From the IMG/VR virus record IMGVR_UViG_3300034118_000659, positions 1-36,568 of that record: a stretch of 36,568 bases of DNA. One strand, written 5' to 3'. This document shows positions 23,194-36,143 of this stretch, one piece after another (position 1 is the stretch's first letter; every line of letters begins with the position of its first letter). The stretch is from a virus. The notes below the pieces were generated by a model, which ran no database searches, was not told where the DNA came from, and saw only the letters and a program-made list of their open reading frames with translations. The translations under genes were made by a program, and so were the position numbers.

Positions 23194-23807
23194 TATGACC
23201 TATGATACTTATTATGTCTAACTATAGCCTCAGTGTTAAATACAATAGAGTATCTATCTCTTACTCTTAGTGACCAGTCAACATCTTCTTCTTGACCCCA
23301 TATGAGGTTTTCATTAAGTGGATGGTGCTCCATAACATATTTCTTGACTATCATATATGATCCAGATATATACATATGTTTGGTCAAAGACCAGTCATCA
23401 GTTGGTATCTGGGTATAGCGAGGAATCTTGGGATGATCCCAGATAACCCAATCATATCTATATCTAGAACCATCAATGTATAGTTGAGTGTTAGTTGCAA
23501 TATCCCAATCATTGCCAAAATCAAGAAAAGCAGAATACCACTTATAATCAAATATAAAGTAGTCGTGCATCAAAATAACATTTTCGTATTTGGCATTTCT
23601 GGATAAGATATTTTTCTTTTTAGTTATCCACATAGGGGTAGGTGAGTCAAATGGTATTTGGATTACATCTGGATCTATCTGACTATGGGCAGGACCAATG
23701 ATTAAAATCTCATAGTTAGGTATCTTTAAAGACTTTATGCTTCTTATAGTCTCAAGTAGGCGATCTACATTTTTGTAGTCAGTCGTAATCCCAAATGTAA
23801 AATCCAT
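23190..23807 (-). CDS. glycosyltransferase family 2-like protein
   Basis: 205 residues. FTFGITTDYKNVDRLLETIRS is the first strand-helix of a GT-A fold; KYENVILMHDYFIFDYKWY carries the DxD-like metal motif (MHDY), and WGQEEDVDWSLRVRDRY matches the EDxDWxxR block near the acceptor site. The usual second half is short. Such enzymes use NDP-sugars to glycosylate lipids, teichoic acids or proteins. A start 6 nt from TATACT suggests leaderless translation. Confidence 0.85.
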   Translation of the reverse strand: MDFTFGITTDYKNVDRLLETIRSIKSLKIPNYEILIIGPAHSQIDPDVIQIPFDSPTPMWITKKKNILSRNAKYENVILMHDYFIFDYKWYSAFLDFGNDWDIATNTQLYIDGSRYRYDWVIWDHPKIPRYTQIPTDDWSLTKHMYISGSYMIVKKYVMEHHPLNENLIWGQEEDVDWSLRVRDRYSIVFNTEAIVRHNKYHRSY

Positions 23808-24010: not shown

Positions 24011-24147
24011 TTGAAGAAGTCTATCCCCACATACCATTTAAAGAGATATAAGCCAATCTCCCATTCGTGTTTAATGGGATATCCCCAGTTAGCAACATAG
24101 ACCCCAATAGCATAGTTAGAGGTCATTCTGCCATAGTGTAGTTTCAT
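24007..24147 (-). CDS. 46-residue aromatic-rich protein, unknown
   Basis: MKLHYGRMTSNYAIGVYVAN and IKHEWEIGLYLFKWYVGID. Probably beta-rich. The ATG is 6 nt after a minus-strand TGATATGAT, matching the leaderless promoters. Confidence 0.6.
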   Translation of the reverse strand: MKLHYGRMTSNYAIGVYVANWGYPIKHEWEIGLYLFKWYVGIDFFK

Positions 24148-24153
24148 ATACCT

Positions 24154-24187
24154 ATCATATCATAAGAGTTATCCACAGGTGTATAAT
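24154..24187. promoter_or_regulatory. divergent leaderless promoters around a DnaA box
   Basis: Minus -10 TATGAT (24159-24154) for 24147 and plus -10 TATAAT (24182-24187) for 24194, each 6 nt from its ATG. TTATCCACA (24169-24177) lies between them, so DnaA binding could control both. Confidence 0.65.
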
Positions 24188-24399
24188 TAGTGTATGAAGA
24201 ACTTTATCTACACATATGTGTGTCCAGAGTGTGAGTCTGAACTTGAGTTTAAGTCAATGAATAAGGCATCAGATGAGGTTATGTGTATGTGTGGATCAAT
24301 GATGAAGTTGATTAGGTATTGGGCTATAAGTGCAGAGTTAGATAGTTATCCACAGCCTGATAAGCCAAAAATGTCATAGTTATCCACATGTTATCCACA
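24169..24399. other. candidate replication origin: four DnaA boxes
   Basis: Four exact copies of the DnaA-box consensus TTATCCACA, all on the plus strand, at 24169, 24346, 24380 and 24391 (the last two 2 bp apart). The AT-rich repeat array at 24507-24730 lies next to them. Further single boxes are at 23624, 29957 (minus), 33537 and 35053 (minus). Clustered DnaA boxes beside iteron-like repeats are the hallmark of a DnaA-dependent origin; transcriptional control by DnaA is the alternative. Confidence 0.6.
24194..24379 (+). CDS. zinc-ribbon protein beside the DnaA boxes
   Basis: 61 residues. YTYVCPECESELEF and VMCMCGSMMKLIRYW form an FmdB-like zinc ribbon. Leaderless start. The only rightward gene in the right third of the window; it carries a DnaA box in its last codons (24346) and another in its promoter, so it may be autoregulated or be part of a replication control unit (inference). 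Confidence 0.75.
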   Translation: MKNFIYTYVCPECESELEFKSMNKASDEVMCMCGSMMKLIRYWAISAELDSYPQPDKPKMS

Positions 24400-24420
24400 G
24401 ATTAATCTTACTGATTGTAT

Positions 24421-24743
24421 TGTTTAACATTCTAGAAGTGGAGTGAAGTGGAGGATAGTGGGGAATGGAACGCTTTTATAAGGGGGCTCGTAATCTTCTT
24501 GACGGCCAAACCTCAAACCTCCAAACCTTTATAGCCGCATTTTACCACAAACCTTTATATCTGTCAAACCTTTATATGCATGGTTTGGGCATTATAACCT
24601 ATAAATTATGGTTTGTCAAGCCCATTTCATGCAAAACCTTCATATAAAATTTGCTCAAATTTGCTCAGAAAATAAAGAAAACCTTTATAAAAATATATAA
24701 AGGTTTGATAAATCAGGAGAAAAGGTTTGAAACTGGAAAGAAA
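24421..24743. repeat. iteron-like CAAACC(TTTATA) array, no gene
   Basis: CAAACC at 24507, 24514, 24522, 24548 and 24565, several extended to CAAACCTTTATA, and the inverse GGTTTG at 24582, 24610, 24702 and 24725. AAACCTTTATA near 24679 and TATATAAAGGTTT near 24695 form an inverted repeat. An open frame at 24465 is an artefact of the repeats. Confidence 0.65.
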
Positions 24744-25004
24744 TTAGTTCTTCGTAATCTCTGCTTCTTTATTAGTGTATATGGTATACATCTTATTGAA
24801 GTCAGATAGTTTTTCTACTGGCAGTCCCCTGAAAAAAAGGCGGGAGTTATAGAAGGCATGCAAACCACTATACTTAAACAAACCTCTATTGACTCTATCA
24901 ATTAGTCTACCCATAGCCAAACCTAGTTCTCTTTGATCAGAATGATATGATGCCTTTGCATTTACATTTGAACCATTAAACCTTGCATTATTATGAGGAC
25001 TCAT
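24744..25004 (-). CDS. unknown basic protein beside the repeats
   Basis: 86 residues from ATG 25004, 6 nt after TATAAT; a start at 25037 lies before the promoter. MSPHNNARFNGSNVNAKASY, then LGLAMGRLIDRVNRGLF and LPVEKLSDFNKMYTIYTNK. No known family. Its own DNA still contains several CAAACC words. Position next to DnaA boxes makes a replication role possible, nothing more. Confidence 0.7.
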   Translation of the reverse strand: MSPHNNARFNGSNVNAKASYHSDQRELGLAMGRLIDRVNRGLFKYSGLHAFYNSRLFFRGLPVEKLSDFNKMYTIYTNKEAEITKN

Positions 25005-25010
25005 AAAACC

Positions 25011-25019
25011 ATTATACCA
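25011..25019 (-). promoter_or_regulatory. extended -10 promoter of 24744-25004 (leaderless)
   Basis: Minus strand TGGTATAAT (hexamer 25016-25011). The tandem repeats at 25059-25161 lie just upstream. Confidence 0.75.
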
Positions 25020-25058
25020 GGATATAAGATTTGACAAACCAAGGTTTGTATGGTATAA

Positions 25059-25161
25059 GGTTTGGGGAAAAATATTTGTCCTTCGTAATATAGGTTTGGG
25101 GAAAATAAAGGTTTGATCGTAATATCCAGGTTTGGGGAAAAATTTTTGATCGTTCGTAATA
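25059..25161. repeat. three tandem 32-33 bp repeats
   Basis: GGTTTGGGGAAAA...CGTAATA at 25059-25090 and 25129-25161; the middle unit (25093-25124) begins GGTTTGGGGAAAAT and ends TCGTAATA. Two degenerate copies are at 28617-28679. The period is 34-36 bp. Read leftward: TTACGA, about 14 bp, TTTTCCCCAAA. Confidence 0.75.
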
Positions 25162-25233
25162 TAGTTGACAAAAAAATGTAATGGTTTGGATATGTCCGAT
25201 TTGTCTGAATCCTCGGGGATTTCCCCAGCCTTT

Positions 25234-25545
25234 TTACAGGTCTGGGGTATCCTCAGAAGTTTTCTTTTTGTTGAATGCGTATTGTAAAAGAAACCCTAAT
25301 TCAATTTCTTCAAGTTCATCTACTTCTTCTTCTTCAACCTTTAGCAAACCGATAAGCATATCAAATGTTTCTTCAATATACTGTTCTCCAAGTGGTGTTG
25401 CCTCTTTAACCAAACCCTGCGCCATCATATACGCCATTGGCAAACCAATATCGTTATACTCCACAAAATTCTTGAAGTCTGGGTCTTCTCTAAATTCGAT
25501 CCATAGTTGCCCTAGGATTCCTGCTTTATCTGCGAGTAGTGCCAT
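25234..25545 (-). CDS. acidic unknown protein, early region
   Basis: 103 residues. MALLADKAGILGQLWIEFRE, then DIGLPMAYMMAQGLVKEAT and a highly acidic IGLLKVEEEEVDELEEIE. Likely a helical cytoplasmic protein. It overlaps the end of 25526-25771 by 20 bp. This type of acidic protein is common in actinophages and has no known job. Confidence 0.7.
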   Translation of the reverse strand: MALLADKAGILGQLWIEFREDPDFKNFVEYNDIGLPMAYMMAQGLVKEATPLGEQYIEETFDMLIGLLKVEEEEVDELEEIELGFLLQYAFNKKKTSEDTPDL

Positions 25546-28040: not shown

Positions 28041-28271
28041 TTAATTATAGGGGTTTGTGTTGATTTTTACAACTTCTCTGGGTGTGATCTTCGTCACATC
28101 TGCAAGGATAGGCTCCCAAGCATCTTCATAACTAATATAGTTTAACTTCCTACCACATGGGCAGGTCATTTCCACAACCCCCAGGGGAAAGCCAAAGCCA
28201 TCCCTAGCAGTAAACTCAACGAGGGCATCACACTCATCAGGGTCACAAACAAATGTATACTTAATCCACAT
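28041..28271 (-). CDS. unknown protein with zinc-ribbon pattern
   Basis: 76 residues. IKYTFVCDPDECDALVEFTA and VVEMTCPCGRKLNYISY (CxxxxC...CxC), a zinc-ribbon-like fold of the kind found in many phage small proteins. The end (ITPREVVKINTNPYN) is basic. Confidence 0.7.
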   Translation of the reverse strand: MWIKYTFVCDPDECDALVEFTARDGFGFPLGVVEMTCPCGRKLNYISYEDAWEPILADVTKITPREVVKINTNPYN

Positions 28272-28432
28272 TAGAAGTATCCCTCTGCCATTAGTCCTTC
28301 AAGGAAGTCTTTGGTTTTCCACAGGGTATTGTAAAGCCAAGGGTCATCATCAGAGTTAATAGTAGTCATAACAGACTGAACTCCCAAGATCATATCTAGT
28401 GCATCTACTTCTTCATATCCTACTAGTGGCAT
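28271..28432 (-). CDS. 53-residue acidic protein, unknown
   Basis: Start at ATG 28432 overlapping the upstream TAA; a frame to 28501 overlaps the previous gene. MPLVGYEEVDALDMILGVQS, then YNTLWKTKDFLEGLMAEGYF. Two helices. Confidence 0.65.
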   Translation of the reverse strand: MPLVGYEEVDALDMILGVQSVMTTINSDDDPWLYNTLWKTKDFLEGLMAEGYF

Positions 28433-28599
28433 TATTCTCCTACCTCTATTCCAGCATAAAATGCTATAGTGTTTAGTGTTGTATGTATGTGGCAGTCGCA
28501 AGCCTCTCCACCCATATTTTCTTCAAACTCTAGGTGAGAGTAGTTGCTTTCATATATTTCATTGATTAGGTCGTCTATCGTATTCATTGTTTGGGTCAT
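28432..28599 (-). CDS. 55-residue protein, first of the leftward run
   Basis: MTQTMNTIDDLINEIYESNY, then EENMGGEACDCHIHTTLNTI. The CDCHIH cluster could bind metal. ATG lies 6 nt after TACAAT (leaderless). Confidence 0.65.
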   Translation of the reverse strand: MTQTMNTIDDLINEIYESNYSHLEFEENMGGEACDCHIHTTLNTIAFYAGIEVGE

Positions 28600-28605
28600 A
28601 GATTA

Positions 28606-28634
28606 ATTGTAGCAAAGATTGGGGAAAAAATCAA
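28606..28634 (-). promoter_or_regulatory. promoter of the leftward run (leaderless)
   Basis: Minus strand TTGATT (28634-28629), 17 bp, TGC and TACAAT (28611-28606). The -35 overlaps a copy of the TTTTCCCC repeat. Confidence 0.8.
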
Positions 28635-28679
28635 ATCTATCGTAAAGAAATTTGGGGAAAAATATCATTCCTTCGTAAA
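28617..28679. repeat. two degenerate copies of the 32 bp repeat
   Basis: ATTGGGGAAAAAAT...CGTAAA ending at 28646 and TTTGGGGAAAAAT...CGTAAA ending at 28679, related to the array at 25059-25161. Confidence 0.65.
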
Positions 28680-28701
28680 ATTATTTTATTAAAAATATTA
28701 T

Positions 28702-28717
28702 GTGACCCACATCACAT
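28702..28717. promoter_or_regulatory. CRP-like palindrome 1
   Basis: TGTGACCCACATCACA (TGTGA-N6-TCACA), perfect arms. Confidence 0.65.
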
Positions 28718-28743
28718 TTCCTCGGGGCCCCATTCACGCTCAG

Positions 28744-28817
28744 CGATTCCAACGGGACTTGAACCCGTAGCCTCTACCGTGACAGGGTAGCGATCTAACC
28801 AATTGATCTATGGAACC
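28744..28817 (-). tRNA. tRNA-Asp (GTC)
   Basis: 74 nt. Acceptor GGTTCCA/TGGAATC, anticodon arm CTACC-CTGTCAC-GGTAG, T arm ACGGG/CCCGT. CCA not encoded. Lies downstream of the DUF932 gene and may be processed from its transcript. Confidence 0.95.
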
Positions 28818-28820
28818 TTG

Positions 28821-28845
28821 CGAGCAGTTTTAATTCTTGCTCAGG
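28821..28845. repeat. GAGCA/TGCTC hairpin, copy 3
   Basis: CGAGCAGTTTT...TGCTCAGG, between the DUF932 stop and tRNA-Asp. Confidence 0.65.
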
Positions 28846-28856
28846 AATTTTTTTTG

Positions 28857-29879
28857 TTATGCTAAAGACATAACATTCTGAACTACTTTTAGCAAACGAT
28901 TTTTTTCTGCGTTGATAGCAGGGTCAAAACCACTTGCGCTTGCGAGAATAGATTCGTTAGAACCACCACGAGCAGAACGATACCAGTCAAGGCGTTCAGT
29001 AAGCGCATTAAACGCACCCCACGCATTACCAGCAATCATTCCATTAAATTCACCTGTGTAGATGTCGTTAATGGTATCAACTTTATTTTCCCATTTCTTT
29101 ACGGCACCCTTAGCATCTTTTTCAGGCTTTGGATAAGCAGCAAGAATGATGTCGTTGAATTGCTTAGCAGAAACTTCTTTCTCAATCATAGCCTTAGCCA
29201 TAACATCAAATTCGTCCATATAAGCATTAGCAAGACCAAGAGTTTCACGAGCAATAGCAACCTTGCCGTTAGCGGTCTGTGTGTGGCGAATCTTGAAAGA
29301 TTGCTTGATTCCCTTATTTTTCTTACGACCTACGCCACCAAGCGCAAGGTTAAGAGTATTAGCGCACACTACACGAACAGGTGTAATGCTTGCTTGAATA
29401 GCGATTGAGCCATCGTGTGATGTGTTGATGAGCAAATAAGTTTTTACCTTATCACTTACACCATTAGGGTCAAGAATTGTTTCACGCTCTAAAGCAAGAG
29501 CGCCAAATACTACACGCCCACCTTTAATTGAGCCAGCAGTTTCCCAACGACCACCGCCGTCTAGGATATTATCACCAAATGAAAATAAATCTTCATTTTG
29601 TAAAACGTGATAGCGCTCACCTACGACACCAAGAATGTCTGTCTGTGAATTGTCTGTCGGATTTGTGCGAAGAACATATTGGTATGCCTTGTCGCTTGTT
29701 AGGTGTGTAGGTGTTTCTAAATCTTCAAGGCGAACATTCCACCCATTAAGATTAGCAGCAGCAAGCATTTCGCTTGTTGTTTTTTCTTCTGTGAATACAG
29801 TTCCCAATCCGTGCCAAGCAGGTTCTCTGAATGATGCGAATGAGGTCTTGCCATTTTGTGTTTCTAAATCGTGAGCCAC
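28857..29879 (-). CDS. DUF932 (TIGR03299-type) phage/plasmid protein
   Basis: 340 residues, GTG start after AAAGAAGGAATATC. FREPAWHGLGTVFTEEKTTS opens the family's typical sequence; VGERYHVLQNEDLFSFGDNI, LLINTSHDGSIAIQASITPV, and VRVVCANTLNLALGG (xRVVCxNT) are its conserved blocks. Length is normal. DUF932 proteins are common in phages and plasmids of many bacteria, function unknown, probably early. Codon usage appears more GC-rich than that of its neighbours, so it may be strongly expressed or acquired separately. Confidence 0.92.
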   Translation of the reverse strand: MAHDLETQNGKTSFASFREPAWHGLGTVFTEEKTTSEMLAAANLNGWNVRLEDLETPTHLTSDKAYQYVLRTNPTDNSQTDILGVVGERYHVLQNEDLFSFGDNILDGGGRWETAGSIKGGRVVFGALALERETILDPNGVSDKVKTYLLINTSHDGSIAIQASITPVRVVCANTLNLALGGVGRKKNKGIKQSFKIRHTQTANGKVAIARETLGLANAYMDEFDVMAKAMIEKEVSAKQFNDIILAAYPKPEKDAKGAVKKWENKVDTINDIYTGEFNGMIAGNAWGAFNALTERLDWYRSARGGSNESILASASGFDPAINAEKNRLLKVVQNVMSLA

Positions 29880-29912
29880 GATATTCCTTCTTTCTGTTGT
29901 GTTGATATTTCA

Positions 29913-29934
29913 AGTATAGCAGGACTGACTGACA
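29913..29934 (-). promoter_or_regulatory. DUF932 promoter, TGTCAG type
   Basis: Minus strand TGTCAG (29934-29929), 10 bp, TGC and TATACT (29918-29913). TTGCTT at the -35 position. Confidence 0.78.
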
Positions 29935-30031
29935 TAAGCAAATCAGGATAGTTAGATGTGGATAAAATGGACATTTCGTAAAAGATCACCCCCTAGGCTA
30001 CGGCGTGTCGACTTGACAAACAAAGCCTGCG

Positions 30032-30051
30032 CCCCGAGGATTTTTGCGGGG
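30032..30051. repeat. CCGAGG hairpin, copy A
   Basis: CCCCGAGG, TTTTT loop, CGGGG. Directly before GAGCA hairpin copy 4. Confidence 0.6.
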
Positions 30052-30058
30052 AACTGAG

Positions 30059-30083
30059 TGAGCAGTTTTTAAACGTGCTCAGG
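30059..30083. repeat. GAGCA/TGCTC hairpin, copy 4
   Basis: TGAGCAGTTTTT...TGCTCAGG, 18 bp after the stop of 30102-30518 (leftward). Confidence 0.65.
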
Positions 30084-30101
30084 TTTATTAGTAGCCCCCT
30101 A

Positions 30102-30518
30102 CTAAATATCCACTCTGTCAATTGATGATGACAAATAAGCAATTGAATCTGAATTGTAATCAACAGTATCAAAATCAATATCGTGAATTGCATTTGTTGC
30201 GTCTTCTTCAGTGCGAGCATTAACAGTAACAGAATACATAACTGTAACTTCAACTTCGAATTCTTTTGTTAATTCAAAGCCCATAATTTCTGCAATTTCT
30301 TCTGCATTTGTTTCTGATATCTCACGCTCTTCTAATGCGTTGAGTGTCCATTCTTGCATTGATTCAACCATACGATTCTTATCTGCAGAATCAAGGTATG
30401 AGCGCTGAGTTACTTTTGAGATATGCTCTTCAAGTTCTGCAACACGAAGAGTTGCTTTTGCTAGCGAATCACGAAGAAAATCTTCTGTCGCATTTACTAC
30501 TGTTACTTTTTGGTCCAT
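30102..30518 (-). CDS. coiled-coil protein with DpnD/PcfM-like end
   Basis: 138 residues. A helical coiled-coil (FLRDSLAKATLRVAELEEHI) and a second helix precede FEVEVTVMYSVTVNARTEED, the xVxAxxxEDAxxxI motif also found in 26232-26414. Ends in DYNSDSIAYLSSSID. Probably dimeric; function unknown. Ribosome site AAAGAGG. Confidence 0.72.
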   Translation of the reverse strand: MDQKVTVVNATEDFLRDSLAKATLRVAELEEHISKVTQRSYLDSADKNRMVESMQEWTLNALEEREISETNAEEIAEIMGFELTKEFEVEVTVMYSVTVNARTEEDATNAIHDIDFDTVDYNSDSIAYLSSSIDRVDI

Positions 30519-30550
30519 TGGGGGCCTCTTTCTGTTAGTTGGTTAATTTA

Positions 30551-30580
30551 ATTGTATCGCAGGGCACTGACAAATGTCAA
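30551..30580 (-). promoter_or_regulatory. promoter with both TTGACA and TGTCAG
   Basis: Minus strand TTGACA (30580-30575), 18 bp, TACAAT (30556-30551). TGTCAG (30572-30567) lies 10 bp before the -10. It reaches into the last codons of the next gene. Confidence 0.85.
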
Positions 30581-31078
30581 TTACCAAGATGATGAGTAAT
30601 AGAATGATAACTTATCTACTTCAGGCAGAGCAAAAATTCGCTCTAACTGATTAATAGTATTAGTAAGGTCGTTCCAATACCATTCATCAATATCTGTTCC
30701 ACCAAAGAAAAATCCTTCTTGTGGTGGCAATAGGCTTGGGTCCTTAGTTTCAAGTGCGTGTTCGCAGATAACCTTTAGTTCTGTTAGTTTATCTTGTGAG
30801 ACATAGTATTCACCGCAGTTATCATTACCGTTTTGGACTTCTCTTACGAACCAAGAGTGTATCTGATTAGCCTTACGCCAATAGGCACAAGTGACTTCTA
30901 CGCTTGCTCCATAGATATCTGTTGCGACATCTGTAAGTTGTGTTATTTCCATTAGGTCATTAAACTTAGGATATACCGCTTCAGGTGAGTTATAAGTTAA
31001 TTCATCATTAGCCTGTAGTGCTTGCCAATTAACCTTGGCTAGGTGCTTTCTTGCGTTTAGATACATATCTAATCCCAT
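30581..31078 (-). CDS. conserved phage protein, unknown
   Basis: 165 residues. MGLDMYLNARKHLAKVNW, then CAYWRKANQIHSWFVREVQN, CGEYYVSQDKLTELKVIC, and GGTDIDEWYWNDL. This set is very conserved in phages of many hosts but has no known function. A regular length and the clear ribosome site (AAGAAGG) make it a secure gene. Invariant W, H, C and Y residues suggest an enzyme. Confidence 0.85.
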   Translation of the reverse strand: MGLDMYLNARKHLAKVNWQALQANDELTYNSPEAVYPKFNDLMEITQLTDVATDIYGASVEVTCAYWRKANQIHSWFVREVQNGNDNCGEYYVSQDKLTELKVICEHALETKDPSLLPPQEGFFFGGTDIDEWYWNDLTNTINQLERIFALPEVDKLSFYYSSSW

Positions 31079-31108
31079 TGGGGGCCTTCTTTCTGTTTGT
31101 TTCTTTTA

Positions 31109-31130
31109 ATTATACTAGAGGGGTCTGACA
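31109..31130 (-). promoter_or_regulatory. promoter of 30581-31078, TGTCAG type
   Basis: Minus strand TGTCAG (31130-31125), 10 bp, TATAAT (31114-31109). No -35 is visible. Confidence 0.75.
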
Positions 31131-31262
31131 AATTGGGTGATAGGGGTAGGCACGGCCGTTAGTCTGGAACCCACCCCTATCAGATCCCCAGGGGACGCTT
31201 GCTATAAATAGCGTGGAACTCAGGGGATAGTGAGTGGGGCTTTTACACCCCACCCAATCTCA
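31131..31262 (-). ncRNA. structured 3' region with three stacked hairpins
   Basis: Leftward after the 31264 stop: GTGGGG/CCCCAC with an 8-nt loop; ATCCCC/GGGGAT enclosing GCTATTTATAGC; then TGATAGGGGT paired with ACCCCTATCA around a large loop. Three independent stems in 132 bases, with no reading frame. Could be a small RNA, a terminator or an RNA-processing element. Confidence 0.5.
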
Positions 31263-31263
31263 C

Positions 31264-31686
31264 TTATAGATAGCGAGCAACCGCATTGTATGTGGAAGTA
31301 TTTACAACTTCCTCATCTGTCATTTTGAGGATACGAATTGCGTTAGACATTTCCTCTTTCTGCTCACGATAGTTGTGCTGATGGATTTGCTCAAAGTTGC
31401 GCTCAGGCTCAGCAGGAAAGTCCTTATCTGAACCTACAATGTCAAAATCAACATTGAGAGTTTTGTTCCAAGAACGATAGTTTGTTCTGATGTTCTCAGC
31501 CTTTGAGAAGTGTGCGATAGCGAAGTCTGCTAGTTCTTTCTGCCAAGCCTTGTAAGCCTCTTGATACTTTGCTTCGTTTTCGTCTTGTGTTTTGTAGTTA
31601 GCCTCTAGTTCTGCTAACTTAGTTTCTAGTGCGGTGATTACTCGTTGAGTAGGGATTTTTACTGAGATTGCTTTTCCTCTTGCCAT
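31264..31686 (-). CDS. unknown coiled-coil protein
   Basis: 140 residues. VKIPTQRVITALETKLAELE starts a long helix to about residue 60 (YQEAYKAWQKELADFAIAHF); the end (MSNAIRILKMTDEEVVNTST) is another. Related actinophage proteins exist, without a function. Ribosome site AAAAGAGAAAAAC is weak. Confidence 0.72.
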   Translation of the reverse strand: MARGKAISVKIPTQRVITALETKLAELEANYKTQDENEAKYQEAYKAWQKELADFAIAHFSKAENIRTNYRSWNKTLNVDFDIVGSDKDFPAEPERNFEQIHQHNYREQKEEMSNAIRILKMTDEEVVNTSTYNAVARYL

Positions 31687-31721
31687 TTGTTTTTCTCTTT
31701 TCTTTTTGTGGGTTAGTTTCT

Positions 31722-31743
31722 ATTATAGGGGGTGGGTCTGACA
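31722..31743 (-). promoter_or_regulatory. promoter of 31264-31686, TGTCAG type
   Basis: Minus strand TGTCAG (31743-31738), 10 bp, TATAAT (31727-31722). Confidence 0.75.
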
Positions 31744-31754
31744 TTTTACTTAGG

Positions 31755-31779
31755 TGAGCCTTTTCACAACTTGCTCAGG
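31755..31779. repeat. GAGCA/TGCTC hairpin, copy 5 (variant)
   Basis: TGAGCCTTTT...TGCTCAGG; one arm base differs. It lies directly before the promoter. Confidence 0.5.
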
Positions 31780-31846
31780 TTGTCCCACTCTATTTATTTA
31801 GACACGCATTTCTGTGGGGCGTGTGTTGCTTTAGCGTTGTGCTAAA

Positions 31847-32014
31847 TTACTTTGCTGTCCAAGTTGTCCAGCGTGTGTTGCCATTTACATCTAACTTAAC
31901 ACGAACGCTCTGTCCGTCAATGTTTGGCTTGATTTCCAAGATAGTTCCTGTCACCTTTGACTTCTGTGAAGTGTAGAGGTCGCCCACCTTGTATGTGTTT
32001 GTTGCTACTGTCAT
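31847..32014 (-). CDS. small beta-rich protein (with longer in-frame form)
   Basis: 55 residues from ATG 32014 with AAAAAGGAG before it: MTVATNTYKVGDLYTSQKSK, then TGTILEIKPNIDGQSVRVKL. This looks like an SH3/KOW-like barrel. The frame stays open to ATG 32125, itself 6 nt after a strong TATAAT, so a 92-residue leaderless form with a 37-residue hydrophobic/basic extension is possible from the second promoter. Either form is a guess at function; the short form is better supported. Confidence 0.7.
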   Translation of the reverse strand: MTVATNTYKVGDLYTSQKSKVTGTILEIKPNIDGQSVRVKLDVNGNTRWTTWTAK

Positions 32015-32045
32015 TTTGTTTCTCCTTTTTGTAGTTGATAATCCA

Positions 32046-32067
32046 AGTATAACATTTCCTACTGACA
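32046..32067 (-). promoter_or_regulatory. promoter of the short form, TGTCAG type
   Basis: Minus strand TGTCAG (32067-32062), 10 bp, TATACT (32051-32046); TTGTAT at the -35 position (17 bp). Confidence 0.8.
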
Positions 32068-32131
32068 AATACAAATTATGCCAGAAAAATCTCACATTTT
32101 GGACTATGTAGGTTTTTTCCTTCATATTATA

Positions 32132-32160
32132 ATTATAGCAAAAAAATCCCAGAAATACAA
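32132..32160 (-). promoter_or_regulatory. promoter of the long leaderless form
   Basis: Minus strand TTGTAT (32160-32155), 17 bp, TGC and TATAAT (32137-32132); 6 nt to the ATG at 32125. Confidence 0.78.
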
Positions 32161-32180
32161 ATCCAATCTCGTAATTCAGG

Positions 32181-32196
32181 TGTGATAAATATCACT
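32181..32196. promoter_or_regulatory. CRP-like palindrome 2
   Basis: TGTGATAAATATCACT, one arm base off. It lies 20 bp upstream of the 32132-32160 promoter; TTACGA occurs on both sides (minus strand). Confidence 0.6.
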
Positions 32197-32237
32197 TCGT
32201 AAATGGGCGTGTTGGGCTTGACAAATGACTGGTCAGG

Positions 32238-32257
32238 CCCCCGAGGATTTTCAGGGG
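32238..32257. repeat. CCGAGG hairpin, copy B
   Basis: CCCCCGAGGATTTTCAGGGG, followed on the plus strand by ATTTTTAG. Confidence 0.6.
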
Positions 32258-32261
32258 ATTT

Positions 32262-32333
32262 TTAGTTCCCTGATCCTCCTAGTATGCTAATCATTACAAT
32301 TAAAATCATTGCAACGTAGAACCAATCGCTCAT
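32262..32333 (-). CDS. 23-residue membrane peptide
   Basis: MSDWFYVAMILIVMISILGG then SGN: one membrane helix. ATG touches the Gp88 stop (TAAATG). Small one-helix proteins of this kind also end other units here (36398). Confidence 0.55.
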   Translation of the reverse strand: MSDWFYVAMILIVMISILGGSGN

Positions 32334-33068
32334 TTATTTTTTACTCGCACTGAATATGATATCACTCTTAGAGTATACACACAATGAGCAAGAAACGCAA
32401 GCGCTACCATTAGTTGAGATAAGTGGAATTTGTTTATTATTCTCAGGACACTTAGCAGCAGGACGGCCAATCATTTCTTTTACATCTGCTTGACCTATAG
32501 CAAAATTCTTAGCAAGGTATGCCATACGAACACCGCTATTAATTTTTAGATCAACGGCAGTTTTAACATTCTCACTATCAGCAGAAAAATACAATGATAG
32601 ATTAGATACATCCTTAAGTATAAGAGCAGCAGCCTTAACACGTGTATATACCCAGAATTGAATATCAGGATTGTTAGTGATTACATTCTTCCAGGCGTTG
32701 GTATACTCATCGTTAAAGAAGTCACCGTCCCAATGAATGCGGAATAGCATAGGTGCGTCTTTCTTTACACAGTCTGCCTTGAAGTCATTAATCATATCAG
32801 TTAACAGTGTCTCCATAGTTAATTGATCAGCGTCTTTGAGCAGGGCCCAATTGTGTAGTAGGTTAGCCCTTACTCCCTTGAAGAGTTTTTCAAGTTTTCC
32901 TGCGTAGCAAACGCTTTCACAAACACTAGTGGCACCAGGGCACGAGAAAGCCTTTCCAGCAGGTAGGCCGAATGTATTTGCGATTGCTGCTTGTTTTCCA
33001 TTTTTTGTGACAAGGTTAGCCACCTTTCTATCGTTAGAACGTTTTAGTTTAAGTGTATTAGTAGTCAA
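32334..33068 (-). CDS. Gp88-type actinophage protein
   Basis: 244 residues, TTG start, overlapping the previous gene by 11 bp. IANTFGLPAGKAFSCPGATS, then VCESVCYAGKLEKLFKGVRA is the diagnostic start of the Gp88 family (first described in mycobacteriophages); LFRIHWDGDFFNDEYTNAWK and FWVYTRVKAAA follow, and a C-terminal CPENN...CVSCSLC adds cysteines. The cysteine set (SCPGATSVCESVC) and the later cluster suggest a metal or iron-sulfur site. Function not known. Confidence 0.9.
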   Translation of the reverse strand: MTTNTLKLKRSNDRKVANLVTKNGKQAAIANTFGLPAGKAFSCPGATSVCESVCYAGKLEKLFKGVRANLLHNWALLKDADQLTMETLLTDMINDFKADCVKKDAPMLFRIHWDGDFFNDEYTNAWKNVITNNPDIQFWVYTRVKAAALILKDVSNLSLYFSADSENVKTAVDLKINSGVRMAYLAKNFAIGQADVKEMIGRPAAKCPENNKQIPLISTNGSACVSCSLCVYSKSDIIFSASKK

Positions 33069-33234
33069 GGCCTAGACTCATTTCTAGAGCAATGTCTTCA
33101 TTATAGGTTGCGGACATTTCTTCTAGTAAGCAATGAGTGCACTTTTCTTCATATTCATCAACCGCATTTTCACGGCAAGAGGGACAGGTTGTTGCGTAGT
33201 ATTCATCATAGAATTCATCTGCGATATTTCCCAT
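33058..33234 (-). CDS. 58-residue zinc-binding acidic protein
   Basis: YYATTCPSCRENAVDEYEEK, then CTHCLLEEMSATYNEDIALE: CxxC...CxxC. Ribosome site AAAAGGAG. Overlaps the Gp88 start, so they are coupled. Confidence 0.7.
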   Translation of the reverse strand: MGNIADEFYDEYYATTCPSCRENAVDEYEEKCTHCLLEEMSATYNEDIALEMSLGLDY

Positions 33235-33239
33235 AGGGG

Positions 33240-33386
33240 CTATTCTCCTTTTTGTTGATATTTATATTCTAGCAGGGCGGACTGACATTTTTTACGGTTG
33301 TAAGCCTTTTTAGAAGGAACGGCAGAAGCAGCGTTAGACCTACGGAGTTCCATAAGCCTGCGTAATTCCTCATTTGTTTTCTTCAT
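33240..33386 (-). CDS. 48-residue basic protein spanning a promoter
   Basis: MKKTNEELRRLMELRRSNAA, then VPSKKAYNRKKCQSALLEYK. Leaderless: ATG 6 nt after TAGTAT. The TGTCAG promoter of the next gene lies within its codons. A basic helix that might bind nucleic acid; function unknown. Confidence 0.55.
   Translation of the reverse strand: MKKTNEELRRLMELRRSNAASAVPSKKAYNRKKCQSALLEYKYQQKGE
33266..33287 (-). promoter_or_regulatory. promoter of 33058-33234, TGTCAG type
   Basis: Minus strand TGTCAG (33287-33282), 10 bp, TGC and TAGAAT (33271-33266). Inside a coding region. Confidence 0.72.
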
Positions 33387-33392
33387 ATAGTA

Positions 33393-33422
33393 ATACTAGC
33401 ACACATATCCTAAAAATGTCAA
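33393..33422 (-). promoter_or_regulatory. promoter of the leaderless 33240-33386 gene
   Basis: Minus strand TTGACA (33422-33417), 18 bp, TGC and TAGTAT (33398-33393). Confidence 0.78.
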
Positions 33423-33432
33423 ATCCAAATCG

Positions 33433-33448
33433 TGTGATTAAAATCACA
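33433..33448. promoter_or_regulatory. CRP-like palindrome 3
   Basis: TGTGATTAAAATCACA, perfect arms, 10 bp before the -35 at 33422-33417. Confidence 0.65.
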
Positions 33449-33572
33449 AAAAAATTTTTCTGCGCCCAGGATCTGGGAAAATAAAATGAGCCATCTTAAA
33501 GAAGTTTTATAGTGGTTACTGGTGAGTAGACTAAAGTTATCCACAGTCTGTCCACAGACACGCCCATCAGCG

Positions 33573-33589
33573 CCGAGGCATTTTCTCGG
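33573..33589. repeat. CCGAGG hairpin, copy C
   Basis: CCGAGG-CATTTT-CTCGG; GACACGCCC and a DnaA box (33537-33545) lie just to the left. The rest of 33387-33602 has no gene but also CCCAGGATCTGGG near 33466. Confidence 0.6.
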
Positions 33590-33602
33590 GCCCCAATTTT
33601 AA

Positions 33603-33845
33603 CTATTCTTCATCATATAAAAAAACATAAAGAGAAATTAAATCAGTGTAAGAAAAAGTAATTATTTCTTTTTCACCAAATTCATTTTGCGTTTCAATTG
33701 CGTAGTTATCGCCAGTAGAATCACTTTCAATAAAAACAATCTCAACAATGTCATCTCCCGTTTTTATTAAATCGCCAATCATTAACTGATCTGGCGTTAG
33801 ATTATCTGCGTGTATTAATTCCATAGCATTCATTGTAGCAGTCAT
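33603..33845 (-). CDS. unknown protein
   Basis: 80 residues from ATG 33845 (3 bp overlap region with previous stop TAAAATG); longer frame to 33869 would overlap. MTATMNAMELIHADNLTPDQ, then DDIVEIVFIESDSTGDNYAI. Probably a small beta barrel. The C-terminal SLYVFLYDEE is hydrophobic/acidic. Confidence 0.7.
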   Translation of the reverse strand: MTATMNAMELIHADNLTPDQLMIGDLIKTGDDIVEIVFIESDSTGDNYAIETQNEFGEKEIITFSYTDLISLYVFLYDEE

Positions 33846-33846
33846 T

Positions 33847-34134
33847 TTATTCCTCATCTTCATATTCATCTACTGGGTCAATAAACCAAGACAAGTGGTG
33901 TTGGTCTACAATAGCGTGGGCAGGTGCGTGGCTCATTCCCTTATAGAATACGCCTTCAGGCATAGCAATAAATCTATTGTAGTCCTCATCATAGTAAGCG
34001 TCAATAGCCTCAATACAAGGCTTAACCATAGATAGTGGAACGGGTGGGTAGTGATTACCCTGTAAGTGATAGGCTAATTGTGTTTCTAAATCTAACACGC
34101 TATCTGCTAATCCAATTGCTGTTATGCTTCCCAT
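33847..34134 (-). CDS. unknown protein, aromatic/acidic
   Basis: 95 residues. MGSITAIGLADSVLDLETQL, then KPCIEAIDAYYDEDYNRF, SHAPAHAIVDQHHLSWFID. Three close His motifs (SHAPAHAIVDQHH) could bind metal. Overlaps the previous ATG. No family known. Confidence 0.7.
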   Translation of the reverse strand: MGSITAIGLADSVLDLETQLAYHLQGNHYPPVPLSMVKPCIEAIDAYYDEDYNRFIAMPEGVFYKGMSHAPAHAIVDQHHLSWFIDPVDEYEDEE

Positions 34135-34274
34135 TATTTTATTTCCTCAATTTCTGCGACATAGACATCGCTTCTGTTTATTCCTGTTTCTAGTTTATAG
34201 TCAAAGACATCTATTGCGTCATCATAGTTTTCTGCTTGGATAGTTATGAAAGTGTTGAAAGAATAAAATTCCAT
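34134..34274 (-). CDS. 46-residue protein, unknown
   Basis: MEFYSFNTFITIQAENYDDA, then DVFDYKLETGINRSDVYVAE. ITIQAENYDDAIDVF is again the strand-xAxxxDDAxxxx pattern of DpnD-like domains. TAATG overlaps on both sides. Confidence 0.65.
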   Translation of the reverse strand: MEFYSFNTFITIQAENYDDAIDVFDYKLETGINRSDVYVAEIEEIK

Positions 34275-34492
34275 TATTTACCTCCAACCTTTCCATTACG
34301 ATAAAGAATTTTTGTGTGTAATTTACCTGAAGGTTCAGATAAATTAACTGTGCGATACTCTAACGCAAATCCGTGGTCAATAAAAGAATTATAGACATTT
34401 ACTGCGTCAAGGGCGTTAGAATAGCGACCAACCCATTTAGGCTGAGCCTCACTATCATTAGTGCTAGTAACTGCGTATAGGTATTCGTTCAT
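34274..34492 (-). CDS. unknown protein
   Basis: 72 residues. YAVTSTNDSEAQPKWVGRYS, then NALDAVNVYNSFIDHGFALE. Strand-helix-strand. Overlaps its neighbours by one base each (TAATG). Confidence 0.68.
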   Translation of the reverse strand: MNEYLYAVTSTNDSEAQPKWVGRYSNALDAVNVYNSFIDHGFALEYRTVNLSEPSGKLHTKILYRNGKVGGK

Positions 34493-34644
34493 TAGTTATT
34501 CTCCTTAGTGATAAATAATTGGTGTGGATTACAATCGCAAGACTCTGTATCAAAGTCCTCACCCTGTGCCCAAAATTGCCAACCTTGCCCATAGCATTTT
34601 TCGCAATTTTCTATTTCTGTGTATAGTGTTTTCATTGTTCCCAT
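34492..34644 (-). CDS. 50-residue zinc-binding protein
   Basis: MGTMKTLYTEIENCEKCYGQ, then SCDCNPHQLFITKENN; CxxC...CxC. An internal ATG (third residue after the first) is a possible alternative start. Confidence 0.65.
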   Translation of the reverse strand: MGTMKTLYTEIENCEKCYGQGWQFWAQGEDFDTESCDCNPHQLFITKENN

Positions 34645-34645
34645 T

Positions 34646-34849
34646 TTAATTCTCTACCTTTACTGCTACTGTGCGACATACGACTTTTCCAAAATTACTA
34701 GGGCGCACTTCCACTAGATAACTTTCGCAACCTTGATACCATACGGCTTTAGGGTGTATCTCTGCTGAGATAATTTCTCCAGTTAAAGTCTTGGAGCGAT
34801 ACTGTGTTCCTACTAGTAGGTGTTCTATTGTATAGACATTTGCTGACAT
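34646..34849 (-). CDS. unknown beta-rich protein
   Basis: 67 residues. VYTIEHLLVGTQYRSKTLTG, then EIHPKAVWYQGCESYLVEVR. Likely an SH3/KOW-like barrel, as in 31847-32014. Ribosome site AAAGAGG. Confidence 0.7.
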   Translation of the reverse strand: MSANVYTIEHLLVGTQYRSKTLTGEIISAEIHPKAVWYQGCESYLVEVRPSNFGKVVCRTVAVKVEN

Positions 34850-34881
34850 TTGCCAACCTCTTTCTTTTTGTTGATAATTCT

Positions 34882-34903
34882 ATCCTACCATAGGGGTCTG
34901 ACA
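34882..34903 (-). promoter_or_regulatory. promoter of 34646-34849, TGTCAG type
   Basis: Minus strand TGTCAG (34903-34898), 10 bp, TGG and TAGGAT (34887-34882). Confidence 0.72.
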
Positions 34904-35026
34904 TTTCTGCTAGACACGCCCAAAGTAAATAGACTTTCTTTTTTACTTACTATGTAAGTCTAGCCTATTAGACAGAAAATATCAAATTACTAGCCAGTAA
35001 GTCCAAATAGTAAGACGCTCAATCTA

Positions 35027-35042
35027 TGTGATAAATCTCACA
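35027..35042. promoter_or_regulatory. CRP-like palindrome 4
   Basis: TGTGATAAATCTCACA, perfect arms. Confidence 0.65.
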
Positions 35043-35085
35043 CGAATAGCCCTGTGGATAAGTCTGTGGACGACACGCCCGAATG

Positions 35086-35106
35086 CGCCGAGGAAAATCT
35101 TCGGCG
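35086..35106 (+). repeat. CCGAGG hairpin, copy D
   Basis: CGCCGAGGAAAATCTTCGGCG (CGCCGA pairs with TCGGCG), followed by ATTTTTAG on the plus strand. As a plus-strand terminator it would block RNA entering this region from the left; on the minus strand there is no T-run. Confidence 0.6.
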
Positions 35107-35123
35107 ATTTTTAGTTGAAACTT

Positions 35124-35148
35124 TGAGCAGTTTTAGATCTTGCTCAGG
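35124..35148. repeat. GAGCA/TGCTC hairpin, copy 6
   Basis: TGAGCAGTTTT...TGCTCAGG, 12 bp after the stop of 35161-35313 (leftward). Confidence 0.68.
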
Positions 35149-35160
35149 ATTCCTATTCAT

Positions 35161-35313
35161 TTACTTTTTAAGTCGCTCAGTTCGCAACGCAATTTGTAAT
35201 CTGCGAATTTCTTTTTCTAATCGCATTTGATTTTTCATTGAGTAAATAATTACAACGCAACACATTGTTAGCGCAATAAAAATTGAAACAATTGCTCCAG
35301 TGTCTAAAGTCAT
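35161..35313 (-). CDS. 50-residue membrane/coiled protein
   Basis: MTLDTGAIVSIFIALTMCCV continues as a membrane helix (to about 24), then a basic coiled helix (MRLEKEIRRLQIALRTERLK). ATGA overlaps the preceding gene. Small anchored coiled-coil; may be a spanin-like or regulatory protein. Confidence 0.65.
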   Translation of the reverse strand: MTLDTGAIVSIFIALTMCCVVIIYSMKNQMRLEKEIRRLQIALRTERLKK

Positions 35314-35495
35314 TTAGCCATCTCCATATCTACGCCACACGCAATTTTAAAAGTGAGTGGGTTAAATCGTGGGTTATCTGATAAGAACATATCTGAAAAA
35401 TCATAGATTAAATCTTCAAAAGTAAATTGGTCAATTAGACCTGAATAACTTTTTAGAATTTCAGCAGTTGCCACATAGTCTTTTCGTGTCATCAT
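35310..35495 (-). CDS. conserved small actinophage protein
   Basis: 61 residues. MMTRKDYVATAEILKSYSGL, then SDMFLSDNPRFNPLTFKIAC. This TRKDY...ADNPRFxxxxFxxAC pattern is frequent in actinophages. It has a helical fold and an unknown role. Confidence 0.8.
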   Translation of the reverse strand: MMTRKDYVATAEILKSYSGLIDQFTFEDLIYDFSDMFLSDNPRFNPLTFKIACGVDMEMAK

Positions 35496-35701
35496 TATTC
35501 TGCCACCTTAAGAATTGCGTAAGTGCCTCGCTCATTGATTTCATCAATTACTGGCTTTAGTTTTGGAGTTAGTAAATCCTTTAGCATTGACTCTAAAAGA
35601 TGAATTTGAGAAACATCATCAAGGCGCAAGAATTGTTGTGCCACTGGATGAGTTTCGTCAAACTCTGTTACGAAACGAAGTGCGTGTTCTACTTTTATCA
35701 T
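35495..35701 (-). CDS. unknown helical protein
   Basis: 68 residues. VEHALRFVTEFDETHPVAQQ, then LRLDDVSQIHLLESMLKDLL. Helical throughout. TAATG overlap with the next gene. Confidence 0.7.
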   Translation of the reverse strand: MIKVEHALRFVTEFDETHPVAQQFLRLDDVSQIHLLESMLKDLLTPKLKPVIDEINERGTYAILKVAE

Positions 35702-35721
35702 TTTTATTTATTTCCTATTCT

Positions 35722-35919
35722 TTAATTTGAGTAAGTGAGTTTTGAAGTGCCACGAAGTGTGCCACTAATTCCTAGAGTGTCGCAAGCGACTTTTACAGAT
35801 ACGCCAACAGGTAATTGTGTTGGGTAAGTTGAGATGAATTGAGCAACCGCACCTCTTGAGGGCAGGCTGATTTTTTTGGTAGAACCATTAAAGGTTTCTA
35901 GCGTTACAATGTAGTTCAT
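35722..35919 (-). CDS. unknown small beta-rich protein
   Basis: 65 residues from ATG 35919, which has AAAGGTGG upstream; the frame to 35976 would start before the promoter. MNYIVTLETFNGSTKKISLP, then VAQFISTYPTQLPVGVSVKV. Probably a small beta-grasp or barrel. Confidence 0.7.
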   Translation of the reverse strand: MNYIVTLETFNGSTKKISLPSRGAVAQFISTYPTQLPVGVSVKVACDTLGISGTLRGTSKLTYSN

Positions 35920-35953
35920 TAGAACCACCTTTCTTTTTTTAAGTGATAAGACT

Positions 35954-35975
35954 ATCCTATCACAGGGGTCTGACA
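35954..35975 (-). promoter_or_regulatory. promoter of 35722-35919, TGTCAG type
   Basis: Minus strand TGTCAG (35975-35970), 10 bp, TAGGAT (35959-35954). Confidence 0.72.
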
Positions 35976-35985
35976 TTTTGGCTAC

Positions 35986-36037
35986 TTATTTGCTAAGGCT
36001 CACTGTGATTTACATCACATTTATTTGCTTAGGCTCA
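35986..36037. repeat. direct repeats flanking a palindrome
   Basis: TTATTTGCTAAGGCTCA (35986-36002) and TTATTTGCTTAGGCTCA (36021-36037) flank palindrome 5 with one base on each side. Confidence 0.75.
36004..36019. promoter_or_regulatory. CRP-like palindrome 5
   Basis: TGTGATTTACATCACA, perfect arms, 28 bp upstream of the TGTCAG element at 35975. Confidence 0.68.
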
Positions 36038-36127
36038 TTAGCCAATTTGTCCTTTATTTAGTTTTTCTTATGTAGTAAGACTATCACACTAGGGGCAAAA
36101 AGTCAAGACGACACGCCGTCTAGTTTT

Positions 36128-36143
36128 TGTGATTTACATCACT
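36128..36143. promoter_or_regulatory. CRP-like palindrome 6
   Basis: TGTGATTTACATCACT. Its right end overlaps the stop codon of 36139-36243. Confidence 0.6.

Follow-up and report, generated by a model that had tools for sequence, protein, structure and literature searches.

A conserved tandem DnaA-box element, a candidate replication origin using host DnaA, beside a predicted terminal repeat in freshwater actinophages

Bacterial origins have been described with a box-spacer-trio architecture, the basal unwinding system (BUS) (PMC8287927). On the genome of phage P1, oriL likewise combines an AT-rich region with flanking DnaA sites, although there the phage protein RepL drives replication, and mutating the DnaA sites beside the AT-rich region left RepL-driven amplification unaffected, i.e., these sites were dispensable in a plasmid test (PMC9948254). 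Phage T5 carries a long terminal repeat of early genes with repeats near its boundary, and its DnaA boxes are restricted to that repeat. For three Streptomyces phages of the Stanwilliamsviridae (cluster BE1), namely NootNoot, Jay2Jay and Samisti12, read pile-ups gave the positions of the genome ends (PMC5764925), and we found no mention of DnaA in that report.

Here we analyze a conserved element in a stretch of 36,568 nucleotides from the IMG/VR virus record IMGVR_UViG_3300034118_000659 (hereafter the window). Like the bacterial system, the element consists of tandem boxes, a short spacer and an AT-rich, NAN-patterned stretch, and its box is that of the dnaA region of a candidate host family. 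Unlike bacterial oriC, it belongs to a lytic-type phage genome, is followed by phage repeats, adjoins a predicted terminal-repeat junction and has lost its boxes in some relatives; judged from its letters, it is a candidate for unwinding of the bacterial kind. The Streptomyces phages resemble the window's group in their colinear genomes, in the DUF932 and gp8 homologues within the repeat and in having TTATCCACA boxes at the syntenic junction, and differ in their inverted boxes, in the lack of recognizable AGTGGAG or CAAACC arrays and in their host genus. T5 would be similar in boundary topology, given the terminal repeat predicted below, but is an unrelated phage with boxes inside rather than just outside the repeat and with no tandem pair.

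The window represents about one third of a freshwater actinophage genome of 112–119 kb. In IMG/VR, 80 loci encode close relatives of its DUF932 protein, and five long relatives (112–119 kb), read as whole genomes, are colinear with NootNoot, which they match in helicase, primase, SSB, PolIII, RecA, RuvC, terminase, portal, major capsid and WhiB. NootNoot gp3 (DUF932) and gp8, both within its 10,787-bp terminal repeat, match early leftward genes of the window. A search for close matches to the right half of the window in a phage collection returned none. Between 2704 and 28817, the window encodes six tRNAs (Asn, Arg, Met, Glu, Gly and Asp). Pfam was run on 20 window proteins in total; ten of these were further ORFs, most of them close to the element or within the early region, and gave no match above curated cutoffs. 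A conserved 103-aa neighbor (25234–25545) has a confident predicted structure (pLDDT 91) and was rejected as a candidate initiator, two fold searches yielding no match with E ≤ 0.001.

Table 1 Features of the element and its surroundings in the window.
Feature	Position	Strand	Basis
Box between zinc-ribbon gene start and divergent small ORF	24169..24177	+	Exact TTATCCACA
Zinc-ribbon-like ORF, 61 aa, one box in 3' end	24194..24379	+	Pfam Zn_ribbon_8
Third box, 34 bp upstream of the pair, last codons of zinc-ribbon ORF	24346..24354	+	Exact TTATCCACA
Distal box of conserved tandem pair	24380..24388	+	Exact TTATCCACA
Proximal box of tandem pair, 2-bp gap	24391..24399	+	Exact TTATCCACA
AT-rich stretch, T mid-triplet in seven successive triplets (DnaA-trio pattern, other strand)	24405..24425	+	Sequence
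Three AGTGGAG-type repeats, 10-bp period, third copy AGTGGGG	24437..24463	+	Sequence; conserved in relatives
Predicted left boundary of terminal repeat / genome terminus, ~24473	24465..24490	.	Inferred only
Conserved TCGTAAT	24488..24494	+	Relatives aligned
CAAACC / GGTTTG repeat array, CAAACCTTTATA units	24507..25188	.	Sequence
Single box upstream of DUF932 gene	29957..29965	-	Exact TTATCCACA
Single box, early spacer upstream of leftward genes	33537..33545	+	Exact TTATCCACA
Single box, early spacer, beside CRP-type palindrome	35053..35061	-	Exact TTATCCACA

Exact TTATCCACA occurs eight times in the window against 0.34 expected (≤3 in 100 shuffles). Since the looser TTWTNCACA is far more weakly enriched (13 versus 5.6 expected), this excess is almost wholly one of the exact box. 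The first-pass annotation had placed four exact boxes on one strand within 24169–24399; these are borne out, all on the plus strand (24169, 24346, 24380 and 24391) with the last two 2 bp apart, as are the single copies it listed at 29957, 33537 and 35053 and the AT-rich repeat array beside the cluster (45 CAAACC in the window versus 17.5 expected). A fifth plus-strand copy (23624–23632) lies within a leftward 205-aa ORF and is absent from the conserved element. Of the boxes assigned to the last codons and 3' end of the zinc-ribbon gene, the one at 24346 does lie there, while the one at 24380 begins directly after the stop codon. The encoded protein matches Zn_ribbon_8 with E=0.0006, below the curated cutoff, and was found in five relatives, in one of them by its last 12 residues only. 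The 24169 box stands outside the widely conserved element, with counterparts seen only in relatives that have the zinc-ribbon gene (matching boxes in L002 and L003). By eye, TATAAT precedes the ATG at 24194 by ~7 bp and a TATGAT-like -10 precedes a leftward 46-aa ORF starting at 24147, so that two divergent leaderless candidate promoters around 24169 are plausible. In L006 and L070, the last zinc-ribbon codons are joined to different upstream sequence with their 3' end adjoining the element, a possible recombination seam at its edge.

Aligned on the last box, the relatives share an element of ~120 bp, which includes the last two boxes of the window's four-box cluster and reads TTATCCACA, 2–3 bp, TTATCCACA, an AT-rich stretch around ATCTTACTGAT, and then repeats, in the order three AGTGGAG at a 10-bp period, TCGTAAT and CAAACC repeats. 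Both boxes are exact, at an 11- or 12-bp offset, in 110 of 130 distinct elements; eight further elements combine one exact with one single-mismatch box, three have the proximal box only, and nine (~7%) lack an acceptable pair but retain the AT-rich core and the repeats. Because box-bearing sequences were part of the input to this set, a fairer sample is provided by the 82 distinct elements on contigs found through AGTGGAG repeats alone, where 70 have the tandem pair, eight a single box and four none, against 0.02% for shuffled boxes. Conservation rules out chance as the source of the boxes, for in most relatives the pair occupies the same position and strand. An exact third box stands 33 or 34 bp upstream in about 46 of the 110 pair-bearing elements, and conservation amounts to 0.25 bits in the upstream flank versus 1.55 bits in the AT-rich part. 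The core profile also matches relatives whose boxes differ; in L083 and L181 it matched box pairs with no TTACTG core after them. Three relatives with boxless elements (G014, G082 and G086) hold one, zero and zero boxes in all, and five others (G009, G081, G083, G084 and G085) keep boxes elsewhere, so that element boxes are common, not universal.

Outside the element, the three single boxes (29957, 33537 and 35053) resemble sites upstream of promoters rather than parts of an origin. Many relatives have a box or tandem pair ~80–160 bp upstream of the DUF932 start, in either orientation (29957 in the window), and DnaA may control early transcription from there. If the locus held no origin, and the boxes drew DnaA away from the host oriC by titration or placed phage transcription under DnaA control, this would account for the additional boxes ahead of early genes, in many cases at one site preceding DUF932, and for the 24169 box between two divergent starts; in E. 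coli, DnaA boxes carried on plasmids titrate the protein, with an effect on initiation (PMC5835720). However, the fixed orientation, the spacing and the attached AT-rich core of the element are left unexplained, and several relatives retain promoter boxes without element boxes, i.e., the two box sets are separable. We therefore hold it improbable that titration or regulation is the whole role of the boxes. The same early region contains CRP/GlxR-type palindromes (GTGA-N6-TCAC), nine versus 0.4 expected in the window and all within 28–36 kb (28084–36143), two of which (36004 and 36128) share TGTGATTTACATCAC; the five long relatives have 5–10 each.

The tandem boxes adjoin a candidate unwinding site, the AT-rich stretch of Table 1, as in a DnaA-opened (BUS-type) origin. 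Across 121 cores, the T fraction at the trio-phase columns outside the anchor was 1.00, 0.97, 0.73 and 0.85, as compared with 0.02 to 0.99 in the columns between them, the six anchor columns being set by the way in which cores were selected. Hand-counted column permutations gave ~0.02 for this phase, one of three, which is marginal: the run of NAN triplets is present and largely conserved, with marginal permutation support. The trio region shows only moderate duplex instability, and the local stability minimum falls in the CAAACC / GGTTTG array, whose units are candidate protein-binding iterons and whose CAAACCT copies lie mostly within 24507–25130. Single-strand folding of the element revealed nothing special (z = 1.09). 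TCGTAA is also enriched (25 versus 10 in the window, 85 versus 38 in NC_042009.1), with copies near the repeat boundary. Cumulative GC skew, one of the checks named by the first-pass annotation, did not favor an origin at the cluster: it makes no turn there and falls steadily through the junction, an outcome that corresponds to half of the refuting result given in that annotation. This test is weak because the skew follows gene orientation, and block-wise GC3 skew gave mixed signals; both were discarded as origin markers.

A phage contig with an 83% identical DUF932 protein occurs in a single Actinomycetota MAG, a link to that MAG's family which is suggestive only, and an actinobacterial host agrees with the WhiB homologues of the phages (PMC10202952). 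Across 30 dnaA loci from this candidate host family, TTATCCACA occurs 91 times versus 0.68 expected and in 30/30 loci, tandem pairs at 10, 11 and 12 bp are also present, and TTGTCCACA occurs seven times. The phage box is hence the box of the candidate host's dnaA region, with the host link consisting of one MAG contig. No DnaA domain was detected in six complete phage genomes (the five relatives and NootNoot), and the five relatives encode helicase, primase, SSB, PolIII and RecA homologues. Built like a bacterial replication start site, the element suggests that the virus may borrow the DnaA of its host.

The position of the boxes relative to genome ends can be examined in five Streptomyces relatives, where they stand outside a terminal repeat of ~11 kb, 71–114 bp from its start. 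Relative to the right repeat start, TTATCCACA is found at -93 in NootNoot and Jay2Jay, -94 in Samisti12 and Daubenski and -114 in Bmoc (deposited ends taken unchanged for Daubenski and Bmoc), and four of the five have an inverted partner box at -70 or -71. This would place the element at a genome-terminus junction, and makes a role in packaging or in a T5-like injection stop possible. By analogy, adding 93 bp to the distal box puts the boundary in the window at ~24473, and the early region to the right of ~24.47 kb would be terminal repeat.

If the element were a packaging site, a terminase subunit would recognize the phased AGTGGAG repeats and cut just beyond them, with DnaA acting as a host architectural factor or the boxes being there for another reason. 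The short distance from boxes to the first base of the right repeat in the five Streptomyces phages is consistent with this, as are the persistence of core and repeats where boxes are lost and a BLAST search with the NootNoot junction (47 Streptomyces records), in which only the boxes-to-boundary stretch still aligns in many distant relatives. Three IMG/VR contigs also end 7–9 bp past the repeats; however, this region is generally prone to assembly breaks, and none of the contigs begins at the predicted boundary, so that the contig-end pile-up was rejected as a terminus map, and the freshwater phage terminus is a predicted position only. Since a terminase has no need of tandem boxes and trio-patterned AT DNA, we consider a packaging site unlikely, albeit a serious contender. 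In a T5-like injection stop, by comparison, the terminal repeat with the early genes would enter first and entry would pause once the boundary element is reached, with host DnaA perhaps assisting there in retaining or freeing the DNA. The T5 stop region is described as containing DnaA boxes along with repeats and palindromes (PMC13250531), the exact boxes of T5 all fall within its terminal repeats, one of them (9510) within the annotated stop signal, and the window's early genes are also transcribed toward the element. Two-step entry is not known for this phage family, though, the element lies outside the repeat in the Streptomyces relatives and flanks the right copy only, and the element folds without particular strength, which together leave an injection stop with little probability.

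Taken together, tandem boxes, trio-patterned AT DNA, repeats and strong conservation make an origin opened by host DnaA the best single reading of the locus, further supported by the use of the candidate host's own box, by a phage replisome without a phage DnaA and by the boxes that mark the syntenic junction in Streptomyces relatives. The first-pass proposal of a host-DnaA phage origin is thereby supported in part, and is weakened by the lack of a skew turn, the boxless elements, the marginal trio phase and the moderate duplex instability. It is also weakened by the Streptomyces relatives, where boxes are inverted, trios are not obvious and TTATCCACA is present even though Streptomyces DnaA is reported to prefer TTGTCCACA, and by the precedent of P1 oriL, where DnaA sites next to an AT-rich region can be dispensable (PMC9948254). 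On balance, we think it somewhat probable that the element (~24346–24510) is a phage replication origin using host DnaA, and infer DnaA binding, opening and origin function from its composition. Host DnaA would bind the tandem pair, with the third upstream box in many relatives, and spread onto the adjoining trio-patterned stretch, where the duplex would open; a putative phage protein may bind the AGTGGAG and CAAACC repeats, and the phage helicase, primase, SSB and PolIII-type polymerase would then load. The element lies at the meeting point of the unique region and the predicted terminal repeat with its early genes.

If this origin assignment is true, a widespread group of freshwater phages would start replication with the host initiator at a compact oriC-like element adjoining the probable packaging cut, and the control of host replication would be linked to the replication of the phage and to the formation of its terminal repeat. 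A more specific and improbable extension is that an origin fired by host DnaA at the repeat boundary serves to copy the repeat, thereby providing two copies per packaged genome, in which case a single site would couple the start of replication with the making of genome ends.
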